Shown here: positions 42,012 to 61,674 of the stretch, in pieces
Numbering within the stretch: position 1 is the stretch's first letter
Layout of the letters: each line of letters starts with the position of its first letter
NCBI RefSeq assembly: GCF_025770725.1
Contig: NZ_JANZKZ010000001.1
Location: 1-64,000, forward strand
Length of the DNA stretch: 64,000 bases
Reading direction: 5' to 3'
Source: Sulfurospirillum oryzae
GTDB lineage: Bacteria > Campylobacterota > Campylobacteria > Campylobacterales > Sulfurospirillaceae
The notes under the pieces: model-generated
The model's database searches: none
Told to the model about the DNA's origin: nothing
Seen by the model: only the letters and a program-made list of their open reading frames with translations
Position numbers and translations under genes: made by a program

Positions 42012-42032
42012 TTCATTCCCCCTGCTTTACAT

Positions 42033-42056
42033 GTAAAGCCATTTCGGTGGCTTTAC
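42033..42056 (+). terminator. groEL terminator
   Basis: GTAAAGCCA (42033-42041) and TGGCTTTAC (42048-42056) form a 9-bp stem. The left arm overlaps the TTTACATGTAAA palindrome at 42026-42037, which could form a competing hairpin. The T run after it is weak. Confidence 0.65.
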
Positions 42057-42071
42057 GCTTTCATAAACATC

Positions 42072-42857
42072 ATGAAAAAATTAACTCTTAGCTTCATCCT
42101 TCTCATCCATTCACTTTTCGCTGCTGACTCACTCATCGATGCCTTGCTCGATGGCAACCTCACGCATAAGATCAATGCCAATTACAATGAAGGCAACGAA
42201 GATGAGACGGCGGCGTATACAAGTACAAAAACCCAAAAGATACTGTTTCACTATCAGACAGCTCCCATAGGAGGTCTTAAACTTGAAGTGGCGACACAAT
42301 CTTTTGCAACGGAAACACACCAAAGTAGCATGGACAATACCATCTATTACACCGAAGCGCTTTATCGTGGTAATGCAGATGACCTTAGTTACAAACTAAG
42401 TGCAAACTACTACGCTGATACCTATCGTCAAAATATCTCCCAAAATGGACTTTCAACCACCAATGCTGTGGGACTTAAAGCTCAGGTGAATTATGAAAAT
42501 TTTGGAAGCTACATCGCCTACTCAAAAGTGGGAGAAGGCAGTCACAGTGTGAGTGGAAATTTAGAGGGAAAAGATCATCTTTTGCCAACCTCTTCTGTGA
42601 TCAGCTCCAACAATTACACGCCTAATACCGCCGCGTATGCCATTGATCTAAACTACTCGCCTCGCCAAGATATTACACTAGGATCGCGTTATGTCATTGC
42701 CAATGAGATGCAAACCAACCTTTCCTACACGGGTGTGTATAGCAATTTTCAGCTCAATGAAATCGCCAAAGGACTCAACCTTGGTCTTACTTTCGACAAA
42801 ACAGGCATCGCGAAACAAAACGATCAGTTTGGGATTAACATCAAAAGTAAGTTTTAA
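42072..42857 (+). CDS. outer-membrane beta-barrel-like protein
   Basis: 261 residues with a signal peptide (MKKLTLSFILLIHSLFAADS). The rest shows alternating polar/apolar strands with Tyr, Thr and Asn (for example YKLSANYYADTYRQNI, INYENFGSYIAYSKVG-like repeats) and ends in a Phe (GINIKSKF), as outer-membrane barrels do. It looks like a small porin or the N-terminal-shortened relative of OprD-type porins. Function is not known. It ends 4 bases inside the convergent YitT gene. Confidence 0.7.
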   Translation: MKKLTLSFILLIHSLFAADSLIDALLDGNLTHKINANYNEGNEDETAAYTSTKTQKILFHYQTAPIGGLKLEVATQSFATETHQSSMDNTIYYTEALYRGNADDLSYKLSANYYADTYRQNISQNGLSTTNAVGLKAQVNYENFGSYIAYSKVGEGSHSVSGNLEGKDHLLPTSSVISSNNYTPNTAAYAIDLNYSPRQDITLGSRYVIANEMQTNLSYTGVYSNFQLNEIAKGLNLGLTFDKTGIAKQNDQFGINIKSKF

Positions 42858-43687
42858 TGCCCACGCCCTAAGAGTTCTGAGGCTTCCATAACCACCATAA
42901 ACGCTTCACTATCAATTTTTTGAATCAACTCTTTCAGTAAAGGCACTTTACGATTTTCAACCACTAAAAAAATCATACGTTTGTTTTCATGCGCATAGAT
43001 ACCATCACCTTGAACAATAGTGCCGTTTTTGCCCAGATGAAGGACAATCTGAGAGCAAAGTTCTTCGATCTTAGAAGAGACGATATGCACTACTTTTTTA
43101 GCAGGTCCGCGGGTTAAGAACATATCGACACTCTTAGCAGTGATGTAAATGCTCACCAAACTCCACAATGCCAAGTCCACATTTTTAGAGATAAATGCAA
43201 TCGCAATGATAATGAGCATATCGATGAAAAGCATCACCGAAGAGGCTTTAATGCTCGTCTTAGAAGCGACGATTTTAGCAATGATGGTTGAGCCTCCAGC
43301 GGATGCGTGACCACTTAAAATAAACCCCAAACCGATGCCAATAGCTATTCCTCCGAAGATGGAGGCCAAGATAACATCGTGGCTGAGTGCCTTTACATGT
43401 AAAAACTCAACCATCACGTCTATACACAATGAGGTAAAGCCAATCGCAATGATACTTCGAATTGTAAAGTGACGCCCAAAGTATTTCGTACCTAAAAGCA
43501 GAAGCGGTGCGTTAATGAGCATCATCAAAACACCCACAGGGAGTTTAAAAATATAATGCCCCAAGAGCGCCATACCCGATGTTCCTCCCGTAACCAACGC
43601 ATTGGGGATAAACAAGGCAACAACACCGAAGCTCAAAGAGAGTGAGCCTAAAAAGATATAACTGTAATTTTTGAGTTCTGATTTCAC
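42854..43687 (-). CDS. YitT family membrane protein (DUF2179 C-terminus)
   Basis: 277 residues. The N-terminal ~200 form five membrane helices of the YitT family (GGTSGMALLGHYIFKLPVGVLMMLINAPLL is a typical block) and the cytoplasmic C-terminus is a DUF2179 domain (ALVEN-like VFLVVENRKVPLLKELIQKIDSEAFMVV). The family is of unknown function; a transporter or regulator role is proposed for some. It carries TTACATGTAA at 43393-43402 inside the gene and another just upstream (43696). It is convergent with the porin-like gene. Confidence 0.88.
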   Translation of the reverse strand: MKSELKNYSYIFLGSLSLSFGVVALFIPNALVTGGTSGMALLGHYIFKLPVGVLMMLINAPLLLLGTKYFGRHFTIRSIIAIGFTSLCIDVMVEFLHVKALSHDVILASIFGGIAIGIGLGFILSGHASAGGSTIIAKIVASKTSIKASSVMLFIDMLIIIAIAFISKNVDLALWSLVSIYITAKSVDMFLTRGPAKKVVHIVSSKIEELCSQIVLHLGKNGTIVQGDGIYAHENKRMIFLVVENRKVPLLKELIQKIDSEAFMVVMEASELLGRGH

Positions 43688-43720
43688 AAGAAGCCTTACA
43701 TGTAAGAAATTGGCGGTATT

Positions 43721-44098
43721 CTAGCGTTCGCAGGCTTCAAGAACAATAGTGTCGATTTGAGGAAGCGAAGTAAAAAAGTCACTAAGCGGTGTGCATCTGC
43801 CATCAAAACAGAGTTCATACTCTTTGGTGAAAGGCGAATGTGTAAGACGGAGTTCTTGAAGCGGTGGAACATGTGGCGTGTAGTGCCAAGCACCCTCTTT
43901 AAACACGGCATCCTCTGGAGGCTCCATCCCTGCCCCACTTCCACGCACACTGGCAGAAGTTACATGTAAAGAGTTTTCTTCAATTTTCCACTGCTCTTCC
44001 CAGCGTATTTTTTCAACCGAATGCATCCATGCGAGGGTAAAAGAGTTCAGAAACAGTGTCACAGACATTGCTCCTGAACTTAGACATAATGCCATCAT
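43721..44098 (-). CDS. DUF1850 protein, partner of the TRAP transporter
   Basis: 125 residues with an N-terminal membrane anchor or signal (LSSGAMSVTLFLNSFTLAW) followed by the DUF1850 domain (WMHSVEKIRWEEQW, RGSGAGMEPPEDA, LTHSPFTKEYELCFDGRC). The protein is nearly always encoded beside TAXI-type TRAP transporter genes and may help assemble or regulate the transporter. It overlaps the permease gene by 4 bases, so translation is coupled. It contains one TTACATGTAA (43960). Confidence 0.88.
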   Translation of the reverse strand: MMALCLSSGAMSVTLFLNSFTLAWMHSVEKIRWEEQWKIEENSLHVTSASVRGSGAGMEPPEDAVFKEGAWHYTPHVPPLQELRLTHSPFTKEYELCFDGRCTPLSDFFTSLPQIDTIVLEACER

Positions 44099-46161
44099 TG
44101 TTTATGGCTTTTCCACCAATTCCAAGCAATAAACAGAGCTCCAAGTACAAACCCTGCTTCATCGGTTAACGGAATGGCGGCTACCAAAAGTGCCGCAGTT
44201 GACGCTGCGATGACACGCTCAAACATATTCAGTGGTGACCACAAATACCCAATCGCCGCACAACCCCAGAGGTAAATTGCTAGTAATGCTTTGATCACCA
44301 CATAAACCACTGCCATAACCGTCGGGTCACCTTGAAGCATCAACGCGGGGTCATAAACCGCCATAAACGGTACAACGAAGCCTGCCACGGCTATTTGCGT
44401 GGCTTTAAAGCCTATCTTCATCGCAGAAGCTTTGGCAATCGAAGCGGCAGCAAAAGCAGCCAGCGCAACGGGAGGTGTAAGATCTGCCATAATGCCAAAG
44501 TAAAAGACAAACATGTGACTGACGATAAGAGGAACACCCAGTTTTAAAAGTGCGGGTGCCGCGATAGAGCTTGTGATGATGTAGTTAGGAATGGTAGGAA
44601 TCCCCATACCCAAGATCAAACACGCCACCATCGTCAAAAGCAATGAAAGAAAGAGGCTTTTTTCTCCAATTTCAAGAATAAACCCTGCAAAGTTTGATGC
44701 CGCACCCGTAAGGGTTAAAACACCAATGATGACACCGACAATCGCACAAGCGATTCCCACGCCCAATGCTTGTTTTGCGCCATCAACCAGTGCTGTTTTC
44801 ATGGTACGAAGTGTGTCACGCCCACCTTGAACCACAAAGTTAAGGACAACCAAAAGAGCAATGACACCTAGAACTGGAACAATGCCCCATTGTAAAAAGG
44901 TTGATGCTCCAAGGGCAATGGCAACCCAAAAGACATAACGCAACGCGACTTGAGAAATGCGCGCTGCAAGAGCCGCTCCTAAGATTAACACCGAAGTGAG
45001 TGTTAATCCCATCATACCTGCAAACATCGGTGTAAAGCCATGAAAAAGCATATAGACCAAGGCCGCTAATGGAAGCGCTAAATACCAACTCGCTTTGAGC
45101 TCTTTCCAAGGATTAGGACATTGATCGGCAGGAATTCCTAAGAGTTTCAAACGCCCTGCTTCAAGATGCACCATCCAAAAGGCGGTAAAGTAGTACAACA
45201 TTGCAGGAATAATCGCCGCCATAACGATGTCAGAGTATGGCACATTCAGCGTCTCAGCCATAATGAACGCTACCGCACCCATAACAGGAGGCATAATTTG
45301 CCCGCCCATAGAAGAAGTCGCTTCAACAGCGCCCGCAAAAACAGAGCTATAGCCAAAGCGTTTCATCAATGGAATCGTAAATTGTCCAACGGTTAAAACA
45401 TTGGCAACACCTGAGCCCGAAATAGTTCCCATAAGCCCAGAAGAGATAACCGCAACCTTAGCAGGTCCACCTTGTGCGCGTCCAACAAGCCCAAGAGCAA
45501 GCGCATTAAAGAGGCGAATCATTCCTGCATGTTCTAAGAATGTTCCAAAAAGGATGAACAAAAAGATATACGTAGCAGAAACCAATGTAGGTGTGCCTAA
45601 AATGCCATCGCTTCCAAGGTAGAGTTGGCTCACAATTTGATCAAAACCAAATCCTCGGTGTGCGATGGAAAGAGGCAAATACTGCCCAAAAAATCCATAC
45701 GCCAAAAAGAGTCCACACACCAGCGTTAAAGCAAACCCCACCACACGGCGTGCCGCTTCAAACACTAAGAGTGAAGCGAGTGTTGCAACGACGAGATCGG
45801 CGGTTGTTGGATCGCCTGAACGCTCAATAAGATCTGCTTCAAACACCAGATGGTAAAAACCAAGCCCAAGCCCAAGAAGGGAAAGCAAAAGGTCATACCA
45901 AGGAATACTCTGCTGTGAACGTCCTTTGGAACTAGCAGGATAAAGCATAAAGATAAGGAACATCAAAAAGCTTACATGTAAAGCTCGAATAATCAAACTC
46001 GAAAATGGATGAAACGCCGCAACAGAAATCTGATAGGCAGAAAATGCAAGCGCACCAAACATCACCAAACGTGACGCCCAGCCTATAAGCTGCCGCTGGT
46101 GCCCGTGCTCTTCAAAATCAGAAGTATCTTCGTGAACTTCCTCGGTTAATAAGGCAGACAT
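44095..46161 (-). CDS. fused TRAP transporter permease (4TM/12TM)
   Basis: 688 residues. About 16 membrane helices combine the small (DctQ-like) and large (DctM-like) TRAP subunits, as in the TAXI branch. Conserved blocks include GFALTLVCGLFLAYGFFGQ, SSGLMGTISGSGVANVLTVGQFTIPLM and MACLILGMGIPTIPNY-type (CLILGMGIPTIPNY). It uses a sodium or proton gradient to import an organic acid captured by the TAXI binding protein encoded upstream (46182). Substrate unknown; TAXI systems elsewhere handle glutamate, or dicarboxylates. Confidence 0.95.
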   Translation of the reverse strand: MSALLTEEVHEDTSDFEEHGHQRQLIGWASRLVMFGALAFSAYQISVAAFHPFSSLIIRALHVSFLMFLIFMLYPASSKGRSQQSIPWYDLLLSLLGLGLGFYHLVFEADLIERSGDPTTADLVVATLASLLVFEAARRVVGFALTLVCGLFLAYGFFGQYLPLSIAHRGFGFDQIVSQLYLGSDGILGTPTLVSATYIFLFILFGTFLEHAGMIRLFNALALGLVGRAQGGPAKVAVISSGLMGTISGSGVANVLTVGQFTIPLMKRFGYSSVFAGAVEATSSMGGQIMPPVMGAVAFIMAETLNVPYSDIVMAAIIPAMLYYFTAFWMVHLEAGRLKLLGIPADQCPNPWKELKASWYLALPLAALVYMLFHGFTPMFAGMMGLTLTSVLILGAALAARISQVALRYVFWVAIALGASTFLQWGIVPVLGVIALLVVLNFVVQGGRDTLRTMKTALVDGAKQALGVGIACAIVGVIIGVLTLTGAASNFAGFILEIGEKSLFLSLLLTMVACLILGMGIPTIPNYIITSSIAAPALLKLGVPLIVSHMFVFYFGIMADLTPPVALAAFAAASIAKASAMKIGFKATQIAVAGFVVPFMAVYDPALMLQGDPTVMAVVYVVIKALLAIYLWGCAAIGYLWSPLNMFERVIAASTAALLVAAIPLTDEAGFVLGALFIAWNWWKSHKQ

Positions 46162-46181
46162 ACTCTTTCCTTCAACATTTT

Positions 46182-47123
46182 TTATTTAATCAAACCCATC
46201 TCTTTGTAGTATTTTTCAGCGCCTGGGTGCAATGGAGCCGGAGGATTTTTCGCAGCATTTTCTAAGCTAATGCCTTTTGCTGCAGCGTGTGCTGCGACCA
46301 TTTGGTCTAAGTTTTCAAACATTGTTTTAGTCATGGTATAGACGGTTTTTTCTGAAACACCCGAATGGGTTACAAGGAAATTTTGAACAGAAACGGTTTT
46401 AACATCAGCCGTTTGACCTTCGTATGTGTTCGCAGGGATGATGCCTACTTGGTATGCAGGATCGTCAATTTTTTTAACAATCTCTTCTGAAATGTTCAAG
46501 AAAACTACTTTTTGTGATGTCGCAAGATCGCGAAGTGCTGCAACACCTGCACCTGAAGAGAGCAATGTAACATCAAGTTGTCTGTTTTTCATGAGCTCAA
46601 CAGACTCAGCGTAAGAGAGGTACTCAACTTTTGCAAAATCTTTATAACTAAGCCCTGCTGCTGCAAGGATGGCTCTTGAGTTAAGTTCTGTTCCTGATTT
46701 TGGAGCACCGACAGAGATGCGTTTGCCTTTGATGTCAGCAAATGACGTGATGCCAGAGTCTGCCGCGGCAACAAAATGGATATAGTTTGGATAAAGTGCT
46801 GCGATAGTACGAAGTTTAGAAAGGGGTGCTTTAAAGCCAGCTTCCGCATTGCCTTTGTACGCATCGGAGAGTGAGTCACCTAAAGAGATCGCCGCTTCAC
46901 CACGTCCTGCTTGAAGGAGATTGAGGTTTTCAACGCTCGCTTTAGTTGCTTGAACCGCGGTTTTAGAATCGGGGATGGCTTTGGCGTACATCTGGGAAAG
47001 TGCAACACCTAAAGGGTAGTAGATACCACTCGTTCCACCCGTGAGAACATTGATAAACTCTGCCGCATAAAGTGAAGTCCCAAGACTCACTGCCATAACG
47101 CCTAGTAAAAGTGATTTTTTCAT
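46182..47123 (-). CDS. TAXI-family TRAP substrate-binding protein
   Basis: 313 residues with a signal peptide (MKKSLLLGVMAVSLGTSLYA). TAXI-family landmarks are INVLTGGTSGIYYPLGVALSQMYAK, KTAVQATKASVENLNLL, and RISVGAPKSGTELNSRAIL. It binds the substrate in the periplasm and delivers it to the permease 20 bases downstream. It is the first gene of the operon TAXI-permease-DUF1850. Upstream, 47124-47302 holds TTTACATGTTTACATGTAAA-type palindromes and presumably the promoter. Confidence 0.95.
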   Translation of the reverse strand: MKKSLLLGVMAVSLGTSLYAAEFINVLTGGTSGIYYPLGVALSQMYAKAIPDSKTAVQATKASVENLNLLQAGRGEAAISLGDSLSDAYKGNAEAGFKAPLSKLRTIAALYPNYIHFVAAADSGITSFADIKGKRISVGAPKSGTELNSRAILAAAGLSYKDFAKVEYLSYAESVELMKNRQLDVTLLSSGAGVAALRDLATSQKVVFLNISEEIVKKIDDPAYQVGIIPANTYEGQTADVKTVSVQNFLVTHSGVSEKTVYTMTKTMFENLDQMVAAHAAAKGISLENAAKNPPAPLHPGAEKYYKEMGLIK

Positions 47124-47302
47124 AGATCGCTCCTTATTAAGTAATTTGCTTATTAAACTAAAGGCTTATTGTTCTATTTTATTTTACTGTTCACTTCACA
47201 ACAAGCTTCTTATAGTTCCACTTTAATGCAAATTTCCTTGGAAAATCTAAAAATGTCACACCTTTACATGTTTACATGTAAAATGCTTCGTATAGAAACA
47301 TA

Positions 47303-47902
47303 TTAATACCCAAGCTCCTCATCGACTAAAATAATGGTTGTACGCCCTTCTTCATCACCATTAATATAGGCAAATTTTTTACCAATATTATGTATGTTAT
47401 AACGAGGTTCTTTCCCCAAACTGATAGCGACATTGTTTAAACGCTCAATGTTTTTAGGGCTTGCCACGTCATGTATGCGCTTAAAGCCCTCTTCCACATT
47501 CTCAACAAGTTTGTTAATGCCAGCAATAATCAGCACTTTTTTAGGACCAAAGATCTGTGCAGCAACCCTATTTCCACTGCCATCGGCATTGACCAGTTCT
47601 CCATTTTTTGTGAGTGCATTGGTGCCAGAGATGAAAAGATCACAGGTCAAACCTTGTCGTCTTCTAGCAACATTTTCTTCCATGCTAATCCCTGCTTCAT
47701 ACTGATTATAAAGGGTGATGTCTTTACGAGAAGTAATATAATCGTAAAGCCCTATTTCTTTTACCGTCACTGAGCCACCCATACCAATGCTTACATGTGG
47801 CTTGATGAAACTCATGGCAACACTAAGTGCCTCTTCTTTATTGGGAACACAAATAAGCTCAAATCCATGCTTTTTATAAATTTTTTTAAGTGCTTCCATC
47901 AT
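47303..47902 (-). CDS. LUD-domain protein (lactate-utilisation LutC-like)
   Basis: 199 residues from ATG at 47902, chosen because GAAAGGG precedes it; a more upstream ATG (47932) has a weak RBS. The LUD (DUF162) domain is seen in ISMGGSVT-like SIGMGGSVTVKE, ARRRQGLTCDLFISGTNALTKNGELVNADGSGNR and VLIIAGINKLV. LutC with LutA and LutB oxidises L-lactate; those partners are not next to this gene, so it may be an orphan member (YkgG-like). Function not proven. Confidence 0.85.
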   Translation of the reverse strand: MMEALKKIYKKHGFELICVPNKEEALSVAMSFIKPHVSIGMGGSVTVKEIGLYDYITSRKDITLYNQYEAGISMEENVARRRQGLTCDLFISGTNALTKNGELVNADGSGNRVAAQIFGPKKVLIIAGINKLVENVEEGFKRIHDVASPKNIERLNNVAISLGKEPRYNIHNIGKKFAYINGDEEGRTTIILVDEELGY

Positions 47903-47996
47903 CTCAACCCTTTCAATTTTTGCCAAAATCATACTCTTATTTTCAAAAAGGTATAATAAGGAAAATTTTACAACACATTAGAAGGAATGTACCCCT

Positions 47997-48707
47997 ATGG
48001 GAAGAGCGTTTGAATACCGAAAAGCAGCAAAAATGAAACGATGGGGAAATATGTCACGCGTATTTCCAAGACTTGGACGAACCATCATGATGGCAGCAAA
48101 AGATGGTGGTGGAGACCCTGATATGAACCCAAAACTAAGAGCCGCTATCTTAAATGCTAAAGCGGAAAATATGCCCAAAGACAACATCGATGCGGCGATT
48201 AAGCGAGCACTTGGCAAAGATGCACAAACTCTTAGTGAGGTTACTTTTGAAGGCAAAGGACCGCATGGTTCACTTTTCTTTGTTGAGTGCGCAACTGACA
48301 ACAACACCCGTACCGTTGCCAACATCAAAAGTGCGTTCAAAAAAGCGGGCGGGGAGATGGTCAACAATGGCTCACTCGACTTTATGTTCTCTCGCAAAGC
48401 CGTTTTTGAATTTGCTAAAACCGCAGATATGGACATCGAAGAGTTAGAACTTGAACTCATTGATGCTGGACTTGAAGAGATCGAGGAAGAAGAAGGCGTA
48501 GTCCTAGTCTATGCAGACTACACCAACTTTGGAAGCTTGAGTGCCGCATTTGAACGCTTAGGCATCGCTTTAACCAAAGCGACCTTAGAGCGCATCGCCA
48601 ACACACCTATCACCCCAACCGAAGAGCAAATGCCCGACATCGAAAAAATCATCGAAAAAATCGAAGATGATGACGATGTTCAGGCTGTTTATACCAACCT
48701 CGGTTAA
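47997..48707 (+). CDS. yebC: YebC/PmpR family protein
   Basis: 236 residues of usual length. The family signature is complete: [62 protein letters not shown]-like [26 protein letters not shown], and [11 protein letters not shown]. YebC proteins act in translation of difficult sequences and in regulation. The terminator that follows is built on TTTACATGTAAA. Confidence 0.97.
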
Positions 48708-48715
48708 TACACTTT

Positions 48716-48745
48716 AGGGCTTTACATGTAAAGCCCTTTTTCCCC
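48716..48745. terminator. bidirectional terminator built on the ACATGT palindrome
   Basis: A 22-base perfect palindrome (48716-48737; AGGGCTTTACA then its inverse) lies between the convergent yebC and chemoreceptor genes and is followed by TTTTTCCCCC. Its centre is TTTACATGTAAA. Confidence 0.85.
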
Positions 48746-48746
48746 C

Positions 48747-50414
48747 TTATACCGTTTTAAATTGAGCGAGTGTATTGTTCAGTGATCCAGAGAGTTTTGC
48801 GAGATGTTCAGCAGCACTTGCTATCTCTTCAACACTTCTAGCATTTGAGCTCGAAAGAGAATTAATGATGGTAATTTTCTCAATGATCACACTATGAACG
48901 AGTTTCGCGTTGTGCTCTGTTTTAATCACAACTTCATTGCTTGCTACAACACTTTGCTGCAGCATCTTAACAGCTTCTTCTGTTTGCGTTTCAACTTCAT
49001 TGGCAAGAAGCCCAAGTTTTTGAACACGCGTTGCATTCATATTCATTTCGCCACTAATGTCGCCAATGGATTGAACGATGACATTGATCGTTGAATTGGT
49101 TTCGATAAGACTTTTTTGAGTTCGTTCAGCTAACTTTCTTACTTCGTCTGCCACGACAGCAAATCCACGTCCATGCTCTCCAGCTCTTGCTGCTTCAATG
49201 GCGGCGTTGAGCGCTAAGAGATTGGTTTGATCGGCTATGTCGCCAATCACCTCAAGCACGACTCTCACTTGATTGGCTTCACTTGCTAGATGATTAAGAC
49301 GGTCATTTATCATGGCTTCTGCTTCTACTGTTTGGTTGAGCTGATCTATGGTTTCGTTGAGAATCTCTTGTGCTTTTTCAAGGCTGCTTTGTGCAACAAG
49401 CGTAACATTTTTACTTTTATTGGCTTGCTCACTCGCTTCACTAATATCTTGTGCCACCTCTTTCGTATCACGTACCGTTTGTGCTACTATAGCGGACTCT
49501 TCTTCGGCTCTTTTGCCAATTTGCAAGCTTGTGTTGGAAAGTTCCTCTGCTATCGAGGCATTTTCCATAGCGTTGCTTTTTGCTCCTGAAATCGCATGGG
49601 ATATCTCTTCTAGAAGTGCATTGACGCTTTGCATGGTGTCGTTTATTTCATCTTTTGTATTGGTTTGTATCGCGCTCGATAAATCTTTGTTGGTAGCCAT
49701 AGAGTGACAACCAACTGCTGCCAATTTTACCGACCTGCCTACACTGCGTGAAATAAGTAATGAAATCAAAATAGATATAGCTATGGCTATAAGTGCCACA
49801 ATTAACATTGTTGATTTAGAAAAAGATATGGTTATTTTTCCTTGATTATTTGCCTCAGCTGCAACTTTCTCATTGAGGTCTATGATTTTGCCAAGCGTGG
49901 TTTCAGCGGCACCAAAAGTGACTTTATTGGTGGCATATAAATCATAAAATTCTATAAATAATTTTTTTTGCATCTCTTCTGATTTATTATCGGCAAGCTT
50001 ACGTGTAACTGCTTTTAGCTTTTCGACATCAACTCGCCAAAGTGCCCACTCTTTTTCAAATTGCTTCCAGAGGATTTCTTCTTCTGCTGTTTGAGGCAAC
50101 GGCTCATAAATTTTCCAGCCTTTGTCTATGCGTTCCCAAATTGCTTTATCTTGATCTAGAATTTTTGCAAATTCCTTTTGGGAGCTATAGTCATTTTCAT
50201 AGATAGGAACTTCAAGAATATTGGCTTTGATAGCCGTTTGTCCCTCATTGATGATTTCTAACCCTAAGATTGATGGCAATCGAACTTCACTTACCTCGCT
50301 TAAAGCATTACCACACGATGTTATTCCATGCCCACCAGTAAAACTTGTCAACAACAGCCCCGCTAAAGATACACCTAAAAGCAATGCTAGCTTTGACTTT
50401 ATTGTTTCAAACAT
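48747..50414 (-). CDS. methyl-accepting chemotaxis protein
   Basis: 555 residues from ATG at 50414, where GAGGAG sits eight bases upstream; the in-frame ATG at 50441 lacks an RBS. Two membrane helices (about 9-26 and 202-225) enclose a ~170-residue periplasmic 4-helix sensor, followed by a HAMP region and the signalling domain with [46 protein letters not shown]. The receptor relays a signal to CheA. The ligand is unknown. It is convergent with yebC. Confidence 0.95.
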
Positions 50415-52279: not shown

Positions 52280-52371
52280 TATGCTCACTCCTTAATCTTC
52301 TTCGCATATTTTAGTACAACATGCTCGAATTTGTTTTGATGCACATCAAAACTCTTTACATGTAAAAGGTT

Positions 52372-53136: not shown

Positions 53137-53162
53137 CGTTTTTCCTCTTTACATGTAAAAGA

Positions 53163-54479: not shown

Positions 54480-54501
54480 AGAAATATCCTTAAGTTATAA
54501 A

Positions 54502-54672: not shown

Positions 54673-54774
54673 TTAACGGAGCTTCAGAAGGAGGACGACG
54701 ACGAGTGATGCGTTAGAAAATTGCGCAATGCTCTGAGGTTGATGTATGGTTTGATGGTTGATAAAAGTTTCCAT
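54673..54774 (-). CDS. leuL: leucine operon leader peptide
   Basis: 33 codons from ATG at 54774, with AAAGGAGAACAG directly upstream, ending at 54673. The C-terminus reads SLVVVLLLKLR, holding three Val and four Leu near the end. Stalling of ribosomes on these codons when branched-chain amino acids are scarce would favour antitermination. The leuA start is 193 bases downstream, with the hairpins in between. This is the standard layout of a leu attenuator, inferred from sequence. Confidence 0.8.
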   Translation of the reverse strand: METFINHQTIHQPQSIAQFSNASLVVVLLLKLR

Positions 54775-54871
54775 CTGTTCTCCTTTAAGAAAATTTGTAA
54801 CGTGAAGTATAGCACAGCTTTTTCTAAAATGTAAAGAGTGGGCGTTTAAAATCTCAAACGCCCATAAAGTG

Positions 54872-55723
54872 TTACGCTTTGAAAAGCTGATAAATAGAAC
54901 TAAAGTCCTCATCACCTTTTCCCATCATTTTCATTTTGGAAAAAAGCTCTTTGGTGACACTCGCCGTATAAAGCGGACGGTTCAAACTGTATGCCAAGTC
55001 TTGCAGACAATGCAAATCTTTGGTAATCGCTGAAGTGCTAAAATGCGGGCTAAAGTCTTCATCGATAAGCTTTTGTGTTTTAGCCGCAAGAACAAGAGAC
55101 TTTCCTCCCCCCGCACCCAAAATGTCCAACAACTCTTTTTTATCGATGCCACACGCTTCACCAAGAGCCGTACACTCGGCAATGGTCGCCATAAATGAAC
55201 CCAAACAGAGGTTATTGATGAGCTTCATTTTCGCCGCAAAGCCAGCCTCTTTCAGATGAAAAATCGTCGAAGCAAATTTCTCAAGCAGTGGTTTACATGT
55301 AAGAAAAACACTCTCACGCCCCGCACAAACAGCGGTCAACTCACCCTTGCTCGCTGGCACAACACTTCCAAGCACTGGGCATTCAAGGTAATTGCCACCT
55401 TGTTTTTCAACCATCGCATGAAATTCAATAACATCGTTGAAATGGTTGGTACTAAGATCGATGATGGTTTTGCCTTTTAAAGCACCGCTTAAAAGTCCGT
55501 TTTCCATTGTTAAAACATCACGAACACCTGCGGAGTCAAACAGACACAAAAGCACTGTGTCGCATTTTTCCAAGAGTACTTTGGGAGAACTCTCACAAAC
55601 AAAGCCTTTCGCTTCTGCCTTGCTTTTGGTGCGATTCCAAACGATAACCTCTTCATTCATGCTCATTAAACGCTTTGCGATGGCTGTACCTAAATTGCCT
55701 AAACCTATAAAACCGATTGCCAT
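54872..55723 (-). CDS. 3-hydroxyisobutyrate dehydrogenase-like NAD(P)-dependent reductase
   Basis: 283 residues. The nucleotide site is GFIGLGNLGTAIAKRLM (about 4-20), then VIVWNRTKSKA. The family signature region is DLSTNHFNDVIE and ECPVLGSVVPASKGELTAVC with the catalytic Lys in FAAKMKLINNLCLG. Members oxidise 3-hydroxy acids or reduce semialdehydes (for example 3-hydroxyisobutyrate or glyoxylate/succinic semialdehyde). The substrate is unknown. It is divergent from the YheO-like regulator (93 bases) and has one TTACATGTAA inside (55293). Confidence 0.9.
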   Translation of the reverse strand: MAIGFIGLGNLGTAIAKRLMSMNEEVIVWNRTKSKAEAKGFVCESSPKVLLEKCDTVLLCLFDSAGVRDVLTMENGLLSGALKGKTIIDLSTNHFNDVIEFHAMVEKQGGNYLECPVLGSVVPASKGELTAVCAGRESVFLTCKPLLEKFASTIFHLKEAGFAAKMKLINNLCLGSFMATIAECTALGEACGIDKKELLDILGAGGGKSLVLAAKTQKLIDEDFSPHFSTSAITKDLHCLQDLAYSLNRPLYTASVTKELFSKMKMMGKGDEDFSSIYQLFKA

Positions 55724-55758
55724 TTTAAAACTCCTTTGACCTATTTTTTAGAATTATA

Positions 55759-55771
55759 GTCTAAATTAGAC
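55759..55771. promoter_or_regulatory. palindromic operator between divergent genes
   Basis: GTCTAA-A-TTAGAC is a perfect inverted repeat with a one-base centre, midway between the dehydrogenase start (55723) and the YheO-like regulator start (55817). A likely binding site for that regulator. Confidence 0.55.
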
Positions 55772-55816
55772 AATTTATCAATATAATTTTTCAAAAAGTT
55801 GTGTTATGATTTCCGT

Positions 55817-56428
55817 ATGAAAAAAGAACTCAAACCTTATGTCGCACTATGCGATGCTGTTGCTAAACTATTTTACCCAAATGTTGAAGTTGTGATGCAC
55901 GACTTGGAAGCTAAAAAACTCGTTCACATCGTCAATGCTTTCTCAAAACGTCGCGTCGGCGATGCGATGATTAGCGAGCTAAAAGACTTAAACAGTATCA
56001 AAGAGAACTGGGTTGGACCTTATGATAAAACCAGCAGTGAGGGCAAACGCCTCAAAGCGGTGAGTATCATCGTGCGAGACGTAGATGAAAAACCCATTGG
56101 AATGATCTGCATCAACTACAACACTGAGCCTATTGCATCGCTGTTTGAATCACTCAAAGGCTTTTTACATGTAAACGACTCTGAGCCAAAACCACCGGTA
56201 CTTTTTTCACAAAGTTGGAGAGAGCATACGGATGAAACGATAGAAAAATATTTGAGCAGTAAAAACATCGCCCTTTCAGGTCTTTCAAGCGACGATAAAA
56301 AAGAGTTGGTCATTTTCTTAGAGAGTGAAGGCATCTTCGCCATTCGCAATGTCGTGGGGTACATCTGCTCAGTTTTAAATGTCTCGAAGGCTACGATTTA
56401 TAACTGGTTGAAAGTGGTGAGAGGTTAG
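55817..56428 (+). CDS. YheO-like PAS/helix-turn-helix transcriptional regulator
   Basis: 203 residues from ATG at 55817. The YheO-type N-terminal PAS-like domain (YVALCDAVAKLFYPNVEVVMHDLEAKKLVHIVN, RDVDEKPIGMICINYN) is followed by a HTH (DDKKELVIFLESEGIFAIRNVV, VLNVSKATIYNWLKVV). A TTG at 55799 extends the frame by six residues, but has no better RBS. A -10-like TATGAT at 55805-55810 would put the transcription start on the ATG, so the mRNA may be leaderless. It probably controls the divergent dehydrogenase gene. Confidence 0.85.
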   Translation: MKKELKPYVALCDAVAKLFYPNVEVVMHDLEAKKLVHIVNAFSKRRVGDAMISELKDLNSIKENWVGPYDKTSSEGKRLKAVSIIVRDVDEKPIGMICINYNTEPIASLFESLKGFLHVNDSEPKPPVLFSQSWREHTDETIEKYLSSKNIALSGLSSDDKKELVIFLESEGIFAIRNVVGYICSVLNVSKATIYNWLKVVRG

Positions 56429-56454
56429 GCTCTCACCACTTTACATGTAAATCT

Positions 56455-57846
56455 TTACCCCAACTTCCATATCTTAAACCGCCTATTTTTAATGGTCGTA
56501 GCACACAGCCCATTAAAGGCTTTATCGGCGTATTCACGCGCTATAGCAACATAAGAGAATTTATCTAAGATGTCGATTTTACCGATGACGCCAGCTTCGA
56601 GTCCTATGTCTTTGGTGAGTGTGCCTAAGATGTCGCCTGCGCGCATTTTGTGTTTTTTGCCACCATCGATGCAAAGTGTGATGTACAAAGCTTTTTTAGG
56701 TTTTGTTAGGGTCGGATTTAGATCGCCAATGCTTTTACATGTAAAGGCAAAATTGGACTCTTTGAGTTCTTCAAAAAAGCTCTCTTCTCTTGGCGTGACA
56801 AAGCTCACCGCCATGCCCTCTTTTCCCATACGCCCTGTTCGTCCGATGCGATGGGTGTAGATTTCCATTGTTTGAGGAAGCTCGTAGTTGATGACCATCT
56901 CGACATCTTTGACATCAAGCCCACGGGAAGCAAGATCGGTGGCAACGAGAATTTGCGCACTGCCATTGGCAAAGAGAAGCAGGTGCTCGTCACGGTCGAT
57001 TTGCTCTAAATCACCGTGCAAAGAGAGCGCATCAAACCCCTCATCGTAAAGGTAGCCTTGAAGCTCGGCAACCCCTACTTTGGTTTTGCAAAAGATGATG
57101 ACAGACTTAGCGTCGCTCTCCAGTAAAACACCTTTAAGTGCCGCTTCTTTTTCGCGTGCTTCAACACTGTAACAAATTTGCGTAATGTTGGGTGAAGTAT
57201 GTGCCTCTTCTTCGATGCTGACGCGAATGGCATTGCTTTGCACTTCGTTGCACATCTGCTCTATCTCTTTAGGAAAGGTGGCAGAAAAAAGCAGCGTTTG
57301 GCGTTTGCTTGGCATCTTAGCGATGATCTTTTCGATGTCCTCGTAAAAACCCATGTCGAGCATGCGGTCTGCTTCATCAAGCACCAATGTTTTGATGTGC
57401 TCAAAAGTGATCGTTTTTTCTTGCAAATGTTGCAATATACGCCCCGGCGTTCCCACGACGATATGAGCTCCATGCTCTAGGTTGATGCACTGAGGCACAA
57501 AACGCGTTCCGCCACACAGTGTCACGATCTTGATGTTATGAGCAAATCTGGCGAGCCGTCTTAGCTCCGCACTTACTTGTTCGGCAAGTTCACGCGTTGG
57601 GCAAAGCACGACCGATTGGATGCGCATGGAGTTTACATGTAAAGCTAAAAGAAGCGGAAGCCCAAACGCAGCGGTCTTTCCACTGCCTGTTTTGGCTTTG
57701 GCAATGATGTCGCGTCCTGCTAATGTGTGCGGTAATGTTGCCTCTTGAACAGGCGTCATTGTGTTGTAACCTAGATGGGAAAGGTTGGCTAACATATCGG
57801 TATGGGTGATCATTTGATCAAAAGATTGGGGGTGTGTTGTTTTCAT
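56455..57846 (-). CDS. dbpA: DbpA-type DEAD-box RNA helicase
   Basis: 463 residues. All helicase motifs are present: Q motif, AKTGSGKTAAF, PTRELAEQ, VGTPGR, VLDEADRML, SATFP, and HRIGRTGR. The last ~75 residues (KHKMRAGDILGTLTKDIGLEAGVIGKIDILDKFSYVAI) are the DbpA RNA-binding domain that recognises 23S rRNA, so it acts in large-subunit assembly. Two copies of TTACATGTAA (56735, 57633) lie inside the gene. It is convergent with the YheO-like gene. Confidence 0.95.
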   Translation of the reverse strand: MKTTHPQSFDQMITHTDMLANLSHLGYNTMTPVQEATLPHTLAGRDIIAKAKTGSGKTAAFGLPLLLALHVNSMRIQSVVLCPTRELAEQVSAELRRLARFAHNIKIVTLCGGTRFVPQCINLEHGAHIVVGTPGRILQHLQEKTITFEHIKTLVLDEADRMLDMGFYEDIEKIIAKMPSKRQTLLFSATFPKEIEQMCNEVQSNAIRVSIEEEAHTSPNITQICYSVEAREKEAALKGVLLESDAKSVIIFCKTKVGVAELQGYLYDEGFDALSLHGDLEQIDRDEHLLLFANGSAQILVATDLASRGLDVKDVEMVINYELPQTMEIYTHRIGRTGRMGKEGMAVSFVTPREESFFEELKESNFAFTCKSIGDLNPTLTKPKKALYITLCIDGGKKHKMRAGDILGTLTKDIGLEAGVIGKIDILDKFSYVAIAREYADKAFNGLCATTIKNRRFKIWKLG

Positions 57847-57945
57847 ATCGCAAATATATCACATTTTTTGCTAAAAATCGTCCGTTGATTTGGTATAATC
57901 AAAACCTCAAAGAAATCTTATGAAAATAAATATCGAAAGAGTCCT

Positions 57946-58836
57946 ATGCAACGTTACCCTAACTTTAAGAGTTCTATTGCGTCTCGCCTTTTTGGTGCCT
58001 TTGCGTCCAAAGAGTTCCCAAGTCCAATACAACGAACCATCAACAAAACCTACGCTTCTATGATGAAGGTTGATTTGATGGAATTTGAAGAAGCACACTT
58101 ATACAAAAGCCTTAATGCGCTTTTTACCAGACGTTTTAAAATGCGTCGTCTTTTTAATATCAATGAAAAAACGCTTATTTCGCCGTGCGATAGCATTGTG
58201 AGTGCTTTTGGAAAGATCGAAAACAACCTTGCTTTACAGATTAAAGGCTTTAGCTACAATGTGCAGGGCTTGCTAGGCGACTACATCGCTAAACGTGAAA
58301 AAGAGCGTTTAGAGGGTGGCGAGTTTGTCAATTTTTACCTCTCTCCAAGCGATTACCATCGCTACCATGCGCCTATAGATATGCGCATCGCTAAAGCCGT
58401 ACATATACCCGGTCATCTTTACCCCGTTAACTTCACTTGGTTAAAAAAAATTCAGGGACTTTTTGTCGAAAATGAACGTGTTGTGTTAGAATGCTATACC
58501 AAAGAGAACAAACTGTTTTATATGGTTTTTGTAGGCGCACTCAACGTCGGAAAAATGGCATTTACATTCGATAAAAACATCCAAACCAATGCAAAAGCCA
58601 GTATTCAACAGTGTTACATGTACGATGATCTTTTTGTTACAAAAGGAGACGAACTCGGACATTTTGAGATGGGTTCAACCATCGTTATGCTTTTTGAAAA
58701 AGAGTCCGTCAATCTCGAACTTGAAGGAATCTCTCGTGTCAAATTTGGACAACCTATAGGGGGAATACGCGATGGAGAGCACAAAGACAGCATCACTCAA
58801 ACAAATGAGTCGGGGGATGACGCTTCTTTACATTGA
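57946..58836 (+). CDS. psd: phosphatidylserine decarboxylase
   Basis: 296 residues. The catalytic blocks are SPSDYHRYHAPID (about 128-140), PGHLYPVN and the pyruvoyl-forming GST in HFEMGSTIVMLFE (about 240-252), where the protein is cleaved at the Ser. It turns phosphatidylserine into phosphatidylethanolamine in the inner membrane. Its last 65 bases overlap the start of the next gene in a different frame. Confidence 0.95.
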   Translation: MQRYPNFKSSIASRLFGAFASKEFPSPIQRTINKTYASMMKVDLMEFEEAHLYKSLNALFTRRFKMRRLFNINEKTLISPCDSIVSAFGKIENNLALQIKGFSYNVQGLLGDYIAKREKERLEGGEFVNFYLSPSDYHRYHAPIDMRIAKAVHIPGHLYPVNFTWLKKIQGLFVENERVVLECYTKENKLFYMVFVGALNVGKMAFTFDKNIQTNAKASIQQCYMYDDLFVTKGDELGHFEMGSTIVMLFEKESVNLELEGISRVKFGQPIGGIRDGEHKDSITQTNESGDDASLH

Positions 58837-60760
58837 AGATGACACCCAAGCGAGGGATGCTGCAACCAGCCTTTTTTCAGAATTGTTCAATGATGTTATC
58901 GTAGGGGTTGATGGGAAGGATGGTGCACGCTTGTATGCCGCCCATCACGCCAACATCGATCTGGTCATCACTGACATAACAATGCCACACATGAATGGCA
59001 TAGAGCTGATCCATAGCATACGCCACATCAATCCCGATGTTGCCATTATTGTTTTATCTGCACATAACGAAGCAAACTATCTTGCACAGACCATTGAAGC
59101 GGGTGTCGATGGCTATTTGCTAAAGCCTCTTAGCATTGCACCTATGATCTCGACACTGGGTAAAGTCCTCGAAAAGATTCATCTAAAACGAGAAAATACC
59201 AAAAGTGCTCTTTTGCTCAAACAGTATGAAAATATTACCAACACCAGCTCTATTATCTCCAAAACTGACCCTAAGGGTGTTATCACTTTTGTCAACGACA
59301 AATTCTGCCAAATTTCAGGCTATAAAAGAGATGAGCTTATTGGTAAAGCTCACAACATTATCCGCCATCCCGATATGCCAAAAGCTGCTTTTAGAGATCT
59401 TTGGAGAACCATCAAAGATGAAAAAAAAACATGGCAAGGCATTGTCAAGAACCGCGCTAAAAACGGTGACACCTACTACGTTAAAACGACCGTTCAACCT
59501 ATCTTAAATCCCAAAGGAGAAGTCGAAGAGTTCATCTCTTTACGCCATGACATCACGGCTATCATGAGCGATAAAAAACAGCTTTTTGACTTTTTGGAAG
59601 CCAACCGTCTTTCGGTACTTATCTTGGTGCAGATTGAAGACTATCCTATTTTAGAAAAATTTTACGATAAAGCCAGTGTCGAGAAAATCGAAGATGCTTT
59701 TGGTAAAAACATGCTCTATCTTATGCCTAATAGGTGGGGATTTCAGCGTGTTTACCATCTTGGAAACGGGCTTTATGCTTTTGCGATTGACAGGCGTAAT
59801 TGCAAAGCGACAAAAGAGGAAATTTATGCCGTTTTAGAGCAGTTTTTAGCCAACGTCAAAGAATACATCGTCAAAATAGACTCTATAGAATATGATATTT
59901 CCGCCATTTGTAGCTTTACTTATGGCATATTTAGAATCTTTGAAGATGCCAAGATTGGTATCGAAAATGCTATTCAAAGCAAACAACCCATCGTTTATGC
60001 CGATGGACTCTCTGGCATTGAGTATGACAATGCACTCAAAAATATTGAGACCATTCACATGATCAAAACAGCGATTGATAACCGCAAAATCATCTCTTAT
60101 TTTCAGCCTATCGTCAATAATACAACGCAAAAAATTGAAAAATACGAATCGCTCGTGCGTCTTGTGACGGAAGATGGACAGCTTTTAACGCCTTTTTATT
60201 TTCTTGAAACTGCCAAAAAAGGACGTTATTACTCTAAAATCACCCGAATCGTTTTAGAGAACTCTTTTGCAGCTCTTTATAAAATTCCTGAGGTTTCTAT
60301 TTCCATCAATCTTTCGGTTCATGACATCGAACGTGACGAGATCACAAGCTATATCGAAGCCTTACTTACCCAACACAGTGATGAGGCGCATCGCATCATT
60401 TTTGAACTGTTGGAGAGTGAAGATATAAAAGATTTTTTTGTGATTAAGAAATTTATACAAACCGTTAAAGCCAAAGGTGTCAAAATTGCCATTGACGACT
60501 TTGGAACAGGATACTCAAACTTTGAGCGACTGCTCTCGTATGAACCTGACATTCTTAAGATCGATGGTAGCCTTATTAAAAATATTCACAACAATCAGGT
60601 AAATCAGCATATCGTAGAGACAATGATCCTTTTCGCTAAAAAACAACGCCTCACAACTGTCGCGGAATTTGTAGAGAATGAAGCAATCTATGAAATTGTA
60701 CGTGATATGGGAATTGACTACTCGCAAGGATACCATTTCGGGAAACCCAAGTTGTTTTAG
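58772..60760 (+). CDS. REC-PAS-(degenerate GGDEF)-EAL protein
   Basis: 662 residues. Receiver domain (LLYIEDDTQAR; phospho-Asp in IDLVITDITMPHMNG), PAS domain (FCQISGYKRDELIGKAHNIIRHPDMP, about 170-280), a region of ~130 residues where a GGDEF domain would lie but no GGDEF motif is seen, and an EAL domain with YESLVRLV, NLSVHDI, FELLESED, IDDFGTGYSNF and KIDGSLI. ESL in place of EAL and the conserved acidic set suggest an active cyclic di-GMP phosphodiesterase. The start at 58772 overlaps psd by 65 bases and follows GGGGGAA; an inner ATG at 58817 is a less likely start. Confidence 0.9.
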   Translation: MESTKTASLKQMSRGMTLLYIEDDTQARDAATSLFSELFNDVIVGVDGKDGARLYAAHHANIDLVITDITMPHMNGIELIHSIRHINPDVAIIVLSAHNEANYLAQTIEAGVDGYLLKPLSIAPMISTLGKVLEKIHLKRENTKSALLLKQYENITNTSSIISKTDPKGVITFVNDKFCQISGYKRDELIGKAHNIIRHPDMPKAAFRDLWRTIKDEKKTWQGIVKNRAKNGDTYYVKTTVQPILNPKGEVEEFISLRHDITAIMSDKKQLFDFLEANRLSVLILVQIEDYPILEKFYDKASVEKIEDAFGKNMLYLMPNRWGFQRVYHLGNGLYAFAIDRRNCKATKEEIYAVLEQFLANVKEYIVKIDSIEYDISAICSFTYGIFRIFEDAKIGIENAIQSKQPIVYADGLSGIEYDNALKNIETIHMIKTAIDNRKIISYFQPIVNNTTQKIEKYESLVRLVTEDGQLLTPFYFLETAKKGRYYSKITRIVLENSFAALYKIPEVSISINLSVHDIERDEITSYIEALLTQHSDEAHRIIFELLESEDIKDFFVIKKFIQTVKAKGVKIAIDDFGTGYSNFERLLSYEPDILKIDGSLIKNIHNNQVNQHIVETMILFAKKQRLTTVAEFVENEAIYEIVRDMGIDYSQGYHFGKPKLF

Positions 60761-60767
60761 AACCCTC

Positions 60768-60819
60768 TTTTACATGTAAAGCACAAACTCCTCTTTTTCT
60801 TGAGGCTTTACATGTAAAA
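60768..60819 (+). terminator. hairpin built from two ACATGT palindromes
   Basis: TTTTACATGTAAAG (60768-60781) and CTTTACATGTAAAA (60806-60819) are exact reverse complements, able to pair as a 14-bp stem, each also able to fold on itself. They lie just after the EAL gene stop and precede a T-rich run, so they may end its transcript. Confidence 0.7.
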
Positions 60820-60888
60820 CCTTTATTTAATTTTCTTCCAATACAAACTTTCTATAATGGTGCATAAAAATAAATAAAAGGAATGTGT

Positions 60889-61632
60889 TTGATAACAAAA
60901 ATAGATATGAATTCCCCCGAATTTATAGCAGAATTTGAAAAAACGGAACTCTTTACCGACAAAGTATGTGCGCAATTTGGCTTTGCTTACACGCCATTAG
61001 AAGAAGTAAAAGAGTCCATTCAACAAGGTTTAACACGCAATAAGCTCATTTATGGCAAACGCTACTGCCCTTGTTTTATGGTTATAGGAAATACCCTTGA
61101 AGAGCAAGCGAAGGCTGACAACCGTTTGTGCCCTTGCACGCCAGCTCTTAGCGTAGAAATCCCCCAACATGGTAAATGTCACTGTACGATCTTTTGTACC
61201 CCCGAGCATGCGCATGAACTCGCCCAAGCCGAAAACATGGAAGAAGTCGCCCATACCCATTCAAGAGGTCTCAGCAAAGAAGAGTGCGAAGCCTTGATGA
61301 AAAAAGAGCAGGTTGATGGCAATGAGCTTGAAGCGTTACTCGAAGCGAGAGAGCAAGGCTGTGTGAAATTCAATCTTGTGGATACGAGAGAGTGGATGGA
61401 GTGGATGAGTGAGCGCATCAAGGGAACAGACTTTTTGATCCCAACAACGAGTTTTCACAACGCTCTCTCCCAACTCAATGGCAAAGAGAACACACCTGTC
61501 ATCGTTTACTGTTACAGTGGAAGCCGAAGTGCGTATTGCCAACGTATCTTAAAACACATGGGCTATAAAACGGTGATAAATCTCGAATACGGCATTATGG
61601 CGTATGATGGGGAAACTGAAAGCGGAGAATAA
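60889..61632 (+). CDS. ferredoxin:thioredoxin reductase catalytic domain fused to rhodanese
   Basis: 247 residues from TTG at 60889 (AAAGGA six bases upstream); an ATG at 60883 is too close to the RBS, and the ATG at 60907 is a further option. The N-terminal ~105 residues have the FTR-beta signature YCPCFMV, LCPCTPA, GKCHCTIFC (Cys/His set about 58-100), which holds a [4Fe-4S] cluster and a redox disulfide. The C-terminal ~110 residues are a rhodanese domain with active Cys in IVYCYSGSRSA. FTR reduces thioredoxin-like proteins with ferredoxin electrons; the fusion suggests a persulfide- or disulfide-linked role. Confidence 0.88.
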   Translation: MITKIDMNSPEFIAEFEKTELFTDKVCAQFGFAYTPLEEVKESIQQGLTRNKLIYGKRYCPCFMVIGNTLEEQAKADNRLCPCTPALSVEIPQHGKCHCTIFCTPEHAHELAQAENMEEVAHTHSRGLSKEECEALMKKEQVDGNELEALLEAREQGCVKFNLVDTREWMEWMSERIKGTDFLIPTTSFHNALSQLNGKENTPVIVYCYSGSRSAYCQRILKHMGYKTVINLEYGIMAYDGETESGE

Positions 61633-61641
61633 AAAGAAAAG

Positions 61642-61674
61642 TCCTTTTACATGTAAGGCTTACATGTAAAAGGA
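61642..61674. terminator. bidirectional terminator from two ACATGT palindromes
   Basis: TCCTTTTACATGTAAG (61642-61657) and CTTACATGTAAAAGGA (61659-61674) are exact reverse complements around one base, between the convergent FTR/rhodanese and ychF genes, flanked by A- and T-runs. Confidence 0.85.

Follow-up and report, generated by a model that had tools for sequence, protein, structure and literature searches.

A 64,000-nucleotide stretch of the Sulfurospirillum oryzae genome (contig NZ_JANZKZ010000001.1, positions 1 to 64,000; hereafter the window) contains 20 copies of the perfect 10-bp palindrome TTACATGTAA, and the whole genome (G000; 2,632,398 bases in 11 contigs) contains 1,056, against 3 for the reversed pattern. 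Several close relatives without one particular methyltransferase have lost most copies of this word, which suggests a chemically marked tag of 'self' spread genome-wide. The interpretation that we tentatively adopt, with confidence short of even, is that of a methylation-linked mark of self DNA of the highly iterated palindrome (HIP) type, written by a methyltransferase of the D12 class and perhaps read in the uptake of kin DNA.

Abundance and consensus of the palindrome

In 100 dinucleotide shuffles of the window, TTACATGTAA occurs 0.12 times on average and at most twice. The longer form TTTACATGTAAA is found 12 times. The original prediction, made from the letters of the window, had counted 18 copies in 40-62 kb and 2 in 1-15 kb, with well under one expected per 64 kb. 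Those counts are exact (copies at 8332 and 12249, then from 42027 to 61669), and the shuffles bear out the expectation. The 24.7-kb integrated region, said to be free of copies, indeed exhibits none between 15350 and 40000 (Poisson P = 5 × 10-5 at genome density). The same prediction had proposed a comparison with a Markov background and with other palindromes. In a 464-kb sample (the window and 400 kb from contigs 1-5), TTACATGTAA tops all 10-mers, with 170 copies against 1.03 expected under an order-2 Markov model, and the runner-up palindromic 10-mer has 15. Together with the genome-wide count, this confirms the first observation, which was even understated.

The word had been described as a palindrome of 10-12 bp. 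It is a strongly repeated palindrome, but its length is different: the sample exhibits a rigid core of 8 bp, TACATGTA, within a consensus of about 14 bp, CTTTACATGTAAAG. Nested counts in the sample are 1,882 for CATG, 274 for ACATGT, 198 for TACATGTA, 170 for TTACATGTAA, 90 for TTTACATGTAAA and 17 for CTTTACATGTAAAG; CATG overall is under-represented (0.78 of expectation). Beyond the 10-mer, each half-site favours T (0.74) and next C (0.48), and A is avoided at three positions. The sample contains 55 one-base variants per 170 perfect copies, about 29 of the 55 being expected by chance. Twenty-five of them fall at the outermost of the five half-site positions, where about 4 are expected; this base is relaxed to C (15), G (9) or A (1), against about 1, 1 and 2 expected. 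Thirty variants fall at the remaining eight positions, where about 25 are expected, and the sole inner variant to stand out is TGACATGTAA (7 against 1.4 expected).

The motif is confined to Sulfurospirillaceae among the relatives searched. Within the genus, 23 further genomes have 49 to 1,496 copies of TTACATGTAA; elsewhere in the family, 13 genomes from other genera have 7 to 733, and beyond it, 23 genomes representing 21 other families of the order have 0 to 6. Counts of TACATGTA are 109-1,727, 28-1,297 and 1-23 in the genus, the other genera and the other families, respectively, with 0-74 overall for the reversed control.

Conservation in place and its loss

Orthologous stretches of five relatives were aligned to the 464-kb sample, and the sites were compared with control 10-mers matched for G+C content and codon phase. 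Three relatives exhibit strong conservation in place. The exact word is kept at 50 of 54 sites in G012 (83% identity; 0.28-0.33 of matched 10-mers), at 19 of 26 in G017 (74%; 0.12-0.15) and at 10 of 12 in G015 (75%; 0.12-0.19). In contrast, two relatives at similar distances keep fewer sites than the controls: 10 of 69 in G020 (82% identity; 0.25-0.27) and 6 of 80 in G009 (80%; 0.22-0.24, or 0.17 for the phase of one site). Per-base identity at the former coding sites of G020 and G009 is 0.70-0.76, against 0.84-0.85 in matched controls (0.82 for the phase of one site), which would fit a word formerly maintained in coding sequence in spite of other pressures. G020 and G009 group together (3,966 alignment columns against 2,376 and 1,808 for the alternatives), therefore the decay in both is probably a single event.

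A similar contrast is seen around the helicase gene at 56455-57846 of the window. Eight of 13 named loci related to it belong to Sulfurospirillum, with S. diekertiae assigned to Sulfurospirillaceae. Ten of the 13 could be compared: nine keep 36 of 41 aligned sites, and CTSoil_042 (which is G020) keeps 4 of 10. The strict core, the conservation in place and the simultaneous relaxation at all kinds of site point to a single reader that would need the exact word.

An orphan D12-class adenine methyltransferase

The S. oryzae genome contains one D12-class (PF02086) gene (C3:196220-197194; locus L098:4221-5198). Its 325-aa product is also matched by the PADLOC models 'MTase_II' and 'oMTase', and a PDB sequence search returned no match at E-values up to 1. 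The scanned neighbourhood includes genes for a sensor kinase, a transglutaminase-like protein, a MerT-like protein and, in G015, an EF-hand protein, and is free of restriction genes. Genes of the same type, 62-74% identical, are present in 13 other genomes of the genus (G003-G005, G007, G008, G012-G016, G019, G022 and G023); in G006 such a gene is split into two parts. The transglutaminase gene adjoins the methyltransferase gene in 12 of the 12 genomes where it was sought (the 13 carriers except G023).

Four site-poor species (G009, G010, G011 and G020) retain the flanking transglutaminase gene and a 118-aa gene at this locus, with the methyltransferase gene missing in between. In a tree of 13 genes of one family, rooted at the midpoint and with bootstrap support not settled, G010 and G011 form a clade apart from the group holding G000, G009 and G020. 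Since G007 has the gene, the rooting of this tree suggests that the absences are losses. G002 and G021 (the latter S. cavolei), intermediate in their number of sites, possess a 55-56% identical enzyme located 18-25 kb from the transglutaminase gene. Apparent joint loss of palindrome and methyltransferase is seen within the genus in some two groups and, as a partial replacement, in one more case, a pattern that G017 breaks. In those genomes of the genus that are 92% complete or more (G001, G003, G006, G018 and G022 dropped; some genome sizes rounded), the density of TACATGTA is 478-573 per Mb in 12 genomes with the S. oryzae-type enzyme and 42-500 per Mb in 7 without it (one-sided Mann-Whitney P = 2 × 10-4, kinship not corrected). 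None of the PF01555 methyltransferases, examined in 12 genomes, tracks the motif. A methyltransferase swap at the same locus of G009 proved wrong as a candidate: the neighbouring 362-aa proteins are unrelated, and the actual locus of the gene is empty. Elsewhere in G009 (L112:2479-4515), a single 678-aa protein combines C5-cytosine and D12 adenine DNA methyltransferases in one chain.

Phage homologues of the S. oryzae enzyme carry the annotation 'ulcer associated adenine specific DNA methyltransferase'. By this name they would belong with the HpyI family, that of the CATG enzyme M.HpyI. M.HpyI is a CATG methyltransferase of Helicobacter pylori that can occur without its endonuclease (PMC10423294). 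The two would have in common that a methyltransferase of Campylobacterota acts on a CATG core, the target of the Sulfurospirillum enzyme being a prediction. They differ in that the portion of that report available to us describes no long iterated palindrome in H. pylori (PMC10423294).

The original prediction had offered methylation or repair as one meaning of the signature. Its methylation half fits the genus, where the loss of sites accompanies the absence of the enzyme in about two lineages (with G017 as the one clear exception) and supports an apparent link of the motif to methylation. Its repair half, taken as MutL-based repair, is disfavoured, as described below. DNA uptake, which the same prediction had offered as another meaning, is a possibility taken up in the next section.

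A proposed methylated mark of self and its possible reading

In the interpretation adopted here, the roughly 1,000 copies of TACATGTA, usually within CTTTACATGTAAAG, are kept in place by strong constraint. The candidate writer, an orphan D12-class N6-adenine DNA methyltransferase, would methylate the CATG-centred core on both strands, and the methylated site would be a mark of self DNA. This mark may be read at DNA uptake, such that kin DNA would be recognised in natural transformation, as is CtsM-methylated RAATTY in Campylobacter jejuni; uptake biased in this way, with recombination, would bring lost sites back and put their loss at a selective disadvantage. Once the methyltransferase is gone, the mark would vanish and the sites would decay, if its absence is indeed a loss and the cause of the decay. 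We consider methylation as part of the mechanism because of the empty methyltransferase loci. Reading at uptake is favoured because both competence families searched are present (ComEC in 57 and T2SSF in 58 of 60 relatives, and both in S. oryzae), because the integrated island is free of sites, and because biased uptake needs no strong selection at each site. In a more elaborate form, possible but rather doubtful in our estimate, the enzyme and the extended palindromes would make up a species-recognition code read by the DNA-uptake machine, with flank dialects among genera. The outer flank does vary by genus: 170 of the 198 TACATGTA cores in the S. oryzae sample have T..A on both sides, whereas in G025 3 of 37 do, and 32 of the 37 are flanked by C or G on one side or both. 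G026, with only 28 copies of TACATGTA, exhibits a doubling of TCATGA (250 against 124) and 68 copies of ATCATGAT against 18.5 (stretches L042-L045 and L062-L070), possibly a weak CATG-centred relative of the motif or another palindrome with that centre.

An unmethylated DNA uptake sequence of the Neisseria/Haemophilus kind, with the methyltransferase correlation arising by chance, would account for the density of sites, their preference for gene ends and intergenic regions, the empty island and the presence of competence genes, and the flank differences between genera resemble uptake-sequence dialects. We regard it as unlikely. The motif is a perfect palindrome, unlike the uptake sequences of H. 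influenzae and N. gonorrhoeae, and its one-off variants are fewer than those of H. influenzae, for which 764 singly mismatched and 1,471 perfect sequences are reported (PMC1939737). Moreover, two groups of site-poor species are without the same methyltransferase.

Several observations weigh against the methylated mark. The four species with an empty locus represent only about two events, and reading these as losses depends on how a single gene tree is rooted. Ordinary selection on protein-binding sites could explain such strict conservation equally well. The site-poor species keep ComEC and T2SSF proteins, and neither family tracks the motif across the 60 relatives (these being the only two competence families searched). 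S. cavolei keeps 5 of 6 aligned sites without an enzyme of the S. oryzae type. The genus genome G017 (99% complete) has 1,201 copies of TACATGTA and no enzyme; it also lacks the flanking transglutaminase and kinase orthologues, which suggests either a real loss of the region or an assembly gap. Two less complete members of the genus likewise carry sites but lack a homologue: G001 (86% complete, 975 copies of TACATGTA) and G018 (77%, 897 copies), the transglutaminase gene of the latter lying at a contig edge. The correlation between enzyme and sites is not clean outside the genus, where most of its breaks lie. There, G027 (1,124 copies of TACATGTA) and G025 (887) have sites and no full homologue; G026, G034 and G035 have 51-56% identical homologues and few copies (28, 104 and 165, respectively); G040, G056 and G058, of other families, have 53-54% identical homologues and 3-15 copies. 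Homologues 49-57% identical coexist with many copies (1,019-1,297) in G024, G028, G031 and G033. At about 50-57% identity the target may differ. The frequency of CATG or ACATGT outside the motif does not differ clearly with the enzyme. Sites are not significantly scarcer in accessory 1-kb bins (0.24 against 0.43 per kb, P = 0.12).

Plasmids also bear on this point. The related S. diekertiae plasmids pSDCE1 (L185) and pSDIE1 (L186) contain 14 and 13 copies of TACATGTA, against 0.75 and 0.69 expected, of which only 4 on each are in T..A context. On pSDCE1, the methyltransferase gene of the plasmid itself contains four copies, and a LexA-family gene has five either in it or no more than about 100 bp away; this methyltransferase aligns to the S. 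oryzae enzyme at 52% identity over 91% of the query. Such an enrichment is not plainly predicted by uptake and recombination, and counts as a further difficulty for the methylated mark.

Placement along genes and the chromosome

Because open reading frames (ORFs) were called simply as the longest ones, coding and intergenic counts are approximate; intergenic DNA makes up about 6% of the 464-kb sample. Of the 170 sites, 108 fall within called ORFs and 61 in intergenic DNA, the remaining one lying at an edge. Site density rises from 0.25 per kb in coding sequence to 1.09, 1.94 and 5.63 in divergent, co-directional and convergent intergenic regions, respectively. Among the 53 intergenic sites next to a stop codon, 35 are at most 16 bp from it. 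Most coding sites are in the phase TTA-CAT-GTA (68 of 108), in agreement with the earlier remark that the motif is often read as LHV; 39 are in nTT-ACA-TGT-AAn and 1 in TAC-ATG-TAA.

The closeness to stop codons, the convergent density and some hairpins invite the idea of a regulatory or terminator element acting on transcription as a binding site or an RNA hairpin. Hairpins between convergent genes had been proposed earlier, and intergenic hairpins are predicted at 61633-61682, 48708-48746 and 60761-60830, some from two paired sites (-21.2 kcal/mol at 61633-61682) and others from a longer arm (as at 48708-48746). They do not generalise: none is predicted at 56429-56454, and intergenic sites on average exhibit no base-pairing beyond the motif, so that an RNA-hairpin extension was rejected as a general feature. 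The proposed regulator-binding site of promoter type is disfavoured because divergent regions have the lowest intergenic density. With nearly two thirds of the sites coding as well, we hold a role in transcription to be improbable.

The strongest rival is a putative chromosome-organising protein (of nucleoid, segregation or nucleoid-occlusion type) that would prefer methylated TACATGTA or be gated by it, each site being under direct selection. The palindrome is of a size suited to a dimer, the sites are conserved in place, and the core is enriched on plasmids too. Sites are widely spread on the one complete chromosome sampled: 16 stretches of 20 kb from G008 (one contig, 3.18 Mb) hold 4-14 sites, with a variance-to-mean ratio of 0.87. 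Sites of the SlmA/Noc nucleoid-occlusion type would be expected to be scarce around the terminus. The same stretches do not exhibit a clear origin-to-terminus pattern (those by the skew switch have 6, 7 and 6 sites, the mean for a 20-kb stretch being 9.25), and to that extent leave a nucleoid site with such a pattern, as one form of the original prediction, unsupported. Some 1,000 sites would each have to be maintained by selection, which asks a great deal, and the link to the methyltransferase would go unexplained unless binding were gated by methylation. We rate such a reader as somewhat unlikely.

Comparison with known systems

The earlier likening of the word to cyanobacterial HIP1 is apt, both being palindromes with an orphan methyltransferase and with variants mostly at the outermost bases. 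HIP1, GCGATCGC, has been known since 1995; HIPs occur with orphan methyltransferases for GATC and CGATCG, a MutL-dependent ratchet has been proposed as the repair mechanism, and the relation between HIP1 and the methyltransferase was said, as of 2015, to remain "a mystery" (Elhai 2015, PMC4390886). As far as that account goes, HIP1 and the alternate HIPs have in common with the present motif a single palindrome in very many copies, an associated orphan methyltransferase, deviations mostly at the outermost positions and a tetranucleotide core inside a longer palindrome; the joint loss of palindrome and enzyme in some lineages of HIP carriers may have a counterpart in Sulfurospirillum. HIP1 proper is not what we observe, since the core in Sulfurospirillaceae is TACATGTA and not GCGATCGC. 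Unlike HIP1, the Sulfurospirillum word is A+T-rich, 8-14 bp long and centred on CATG, occurs in Campylobacterota and goes with one D12 adenine methyltransferase.

By the ratchet, the sites would be a functionless by-product of methylation-directed mismatch repair, biased repair both creating and protecting them. The orphan methyltransferase and the HIP1-like deviation at the outermost bases would suit it. MutL (PF01119) was found in none of the 60 relatives nor in S. oryzae, with 11 of 14 control genomes matching (MutS was not searched for); therefore MutL-based repair, the HIP1 model as written, is disfavoured and does not carry over to Sulfurospirillum. Protection would also have to be limited to about 10 bp and still keep 50 of 54 sites. 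We regard this origin as very improbable.

C. jejuni belongs to the same order as Sulfurospirillum. It takes up only CtsM-methylated DNA, at RA(m6A)TTY, according to two reports (PMC8468864, PMC10046745). Both systems would employ an adenine methyltransferase to mark self DNA, as a prediction in the present case. The C. jejuni signal, RAATTY, is short and degenerate, whereas the putative signal of Sulfurospirillum is a rigid, highly iterated palindrome. The uptake sequences of Neisseriaceae and Pasteurellaceae are matched by the motif in copy number, intergenic preference, forms that vary among relatives and absence from the integrated island of the window; they differ in being non-palindromic (H. 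influenzae also having more one-off variants), and no methyltransferase link is mentioned in the part of the source consulted (PMC1939737).

A limited, non-exhaustive literature search found no published report of TTACATGTAA or TTTACATGTAAA, nor of TACATGTA or ACATGTAA among the papers listed, and the available text of one Sulfurospirillum genome paper (PMC8865925) does not mention the motif. The kind is known, namely HIP; the phylum, the word, the setting (no MutL found) and the comparative record of loss are new. We thus have a palindrome of the HIP kind in a phylum distant from cyanobacteria, in bacteria without detected MutL, and position-by-position conservation and decay have been measured, a difference from the HIP1 work. 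The relatives provide a natural experiment: at similar distances, the sites are nearly frozen in one relative with the enzyme and have decayed in two without it. The link between methylation and an iterated palindrome becomes directly testable in a free-living, culturable genus, and HIPs are connected to the methylation-dependent DNA uptake of Campylobacter. If the methylated mark is real and is read at uptake, a single system would unite the Neisseria/Haemophilus type of uptake sequence with a mark like that of CtsM in Campylobacter, and HIP-type palindromes would gain a function.

Copies in the window and neighbouring features

The individual copies in the window are listed in Table 1, with the site-free island for contrast.

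Table 1. Palindrome copies in the 64,000-nucleotide window and the contrast region
Feature	Position	Context
motif copy	8332-8341	coding phase 0 (LHV) in ORF 8326-9060 (+)
motif copy	12249-12258	coding phase 0 in ORF 12177-12683 (+)
motif copy	42027-42036	intergenic, 15 bp past ORF 40371-42011 (+) (GroEL-like by eye)
motif copy	43393-43402	coding phase 0 in ORF 42854-43687 (-)
motif copy	43696-43705	intergenic
motif copy	43960-43969	coding phase 0 in ORF 43721-44098 (-)
motif copy	45972-45981	coding phase 0 in TRAP permease ORF 44095-46161 (-)
motif copy	47272-47281	intergenic
motif copy	48722-48731	between convergent ORFs; in terminator-like hairpin, 9-bp stem then T run
motif copy	52356-52365	intergenic
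motif copy	53149-53158	intergenic
motif copy	55293-55302	coding phase 1 (nTT-ACA-TGT-AAn) in ORF 54872-55723 (-)
motif copy	56165-56174	coding phase 0 in ORF 55799-56428 (+)
motif copy	56441-56450	between convergent ORFs; no predicted RNA hairpin
motif copy	56735-56744	coding phase 1 in ORF 56455-57846 (-) (DEAD-box helicase by eye)
motif copy	57633-57642	coding phase 0 in ORF 56455-57846 (-)
motif copy	60770-60779	intergenic; pairs with 60808-60817, predicted hairpin -18.9 kcal/mol
motif copy	60808-60817	intergenic; pairs with 60770-60779
motif copy	61647-61656	between convergent ORFs; pairs with 61660-61669, 18-bp stem, -21.2 kcal/mol
motif copy	61660-61669	between convergent ORFs; pairs with 61647-61656
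integrated defence island, contrast region	15350-40000	zero motif copies

The island itself (15350-39456) adjoins a tRNA-Met gene (39789-39865). It encodes Septu-like PtuA and PtuB (23942-25264 and 23166-23945), a HamB-like helicase (19170-21452) beside a 244-aa partner that has no match (21449-22183), type I restriction-modification genes (32929-39456), a P4-type primase (28530-30794) and a tyrosine recombinase (30826-32079), of which a truncated second copy lies at 16710-17168.

Other short words are also unevenly represented in the family. ACGT is nearly absent from stretches of 26-42 kb each in G024 (L061, L110), G030 (L046-L048, L114) and G035 (L057-L060, L113), with observed/expected ratios of 0.04, 0.07 and 0.00, respectively, and GATC is low in the same stretches (0.37-0.43), a pattern as under restriction avoidance. 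GCATGC is strongly avoided in G020, a genome without the methyltransferase (9 copies against 82 expected; L118-L127, L039-L041). Finally, a Sec-type nitrous-oxide reductase gene is located at 3487-6090 of the window and is followed by what, judged by eye, would be its accessory cluster (3487-13991 in all), in which 2 copies of the motif are found.

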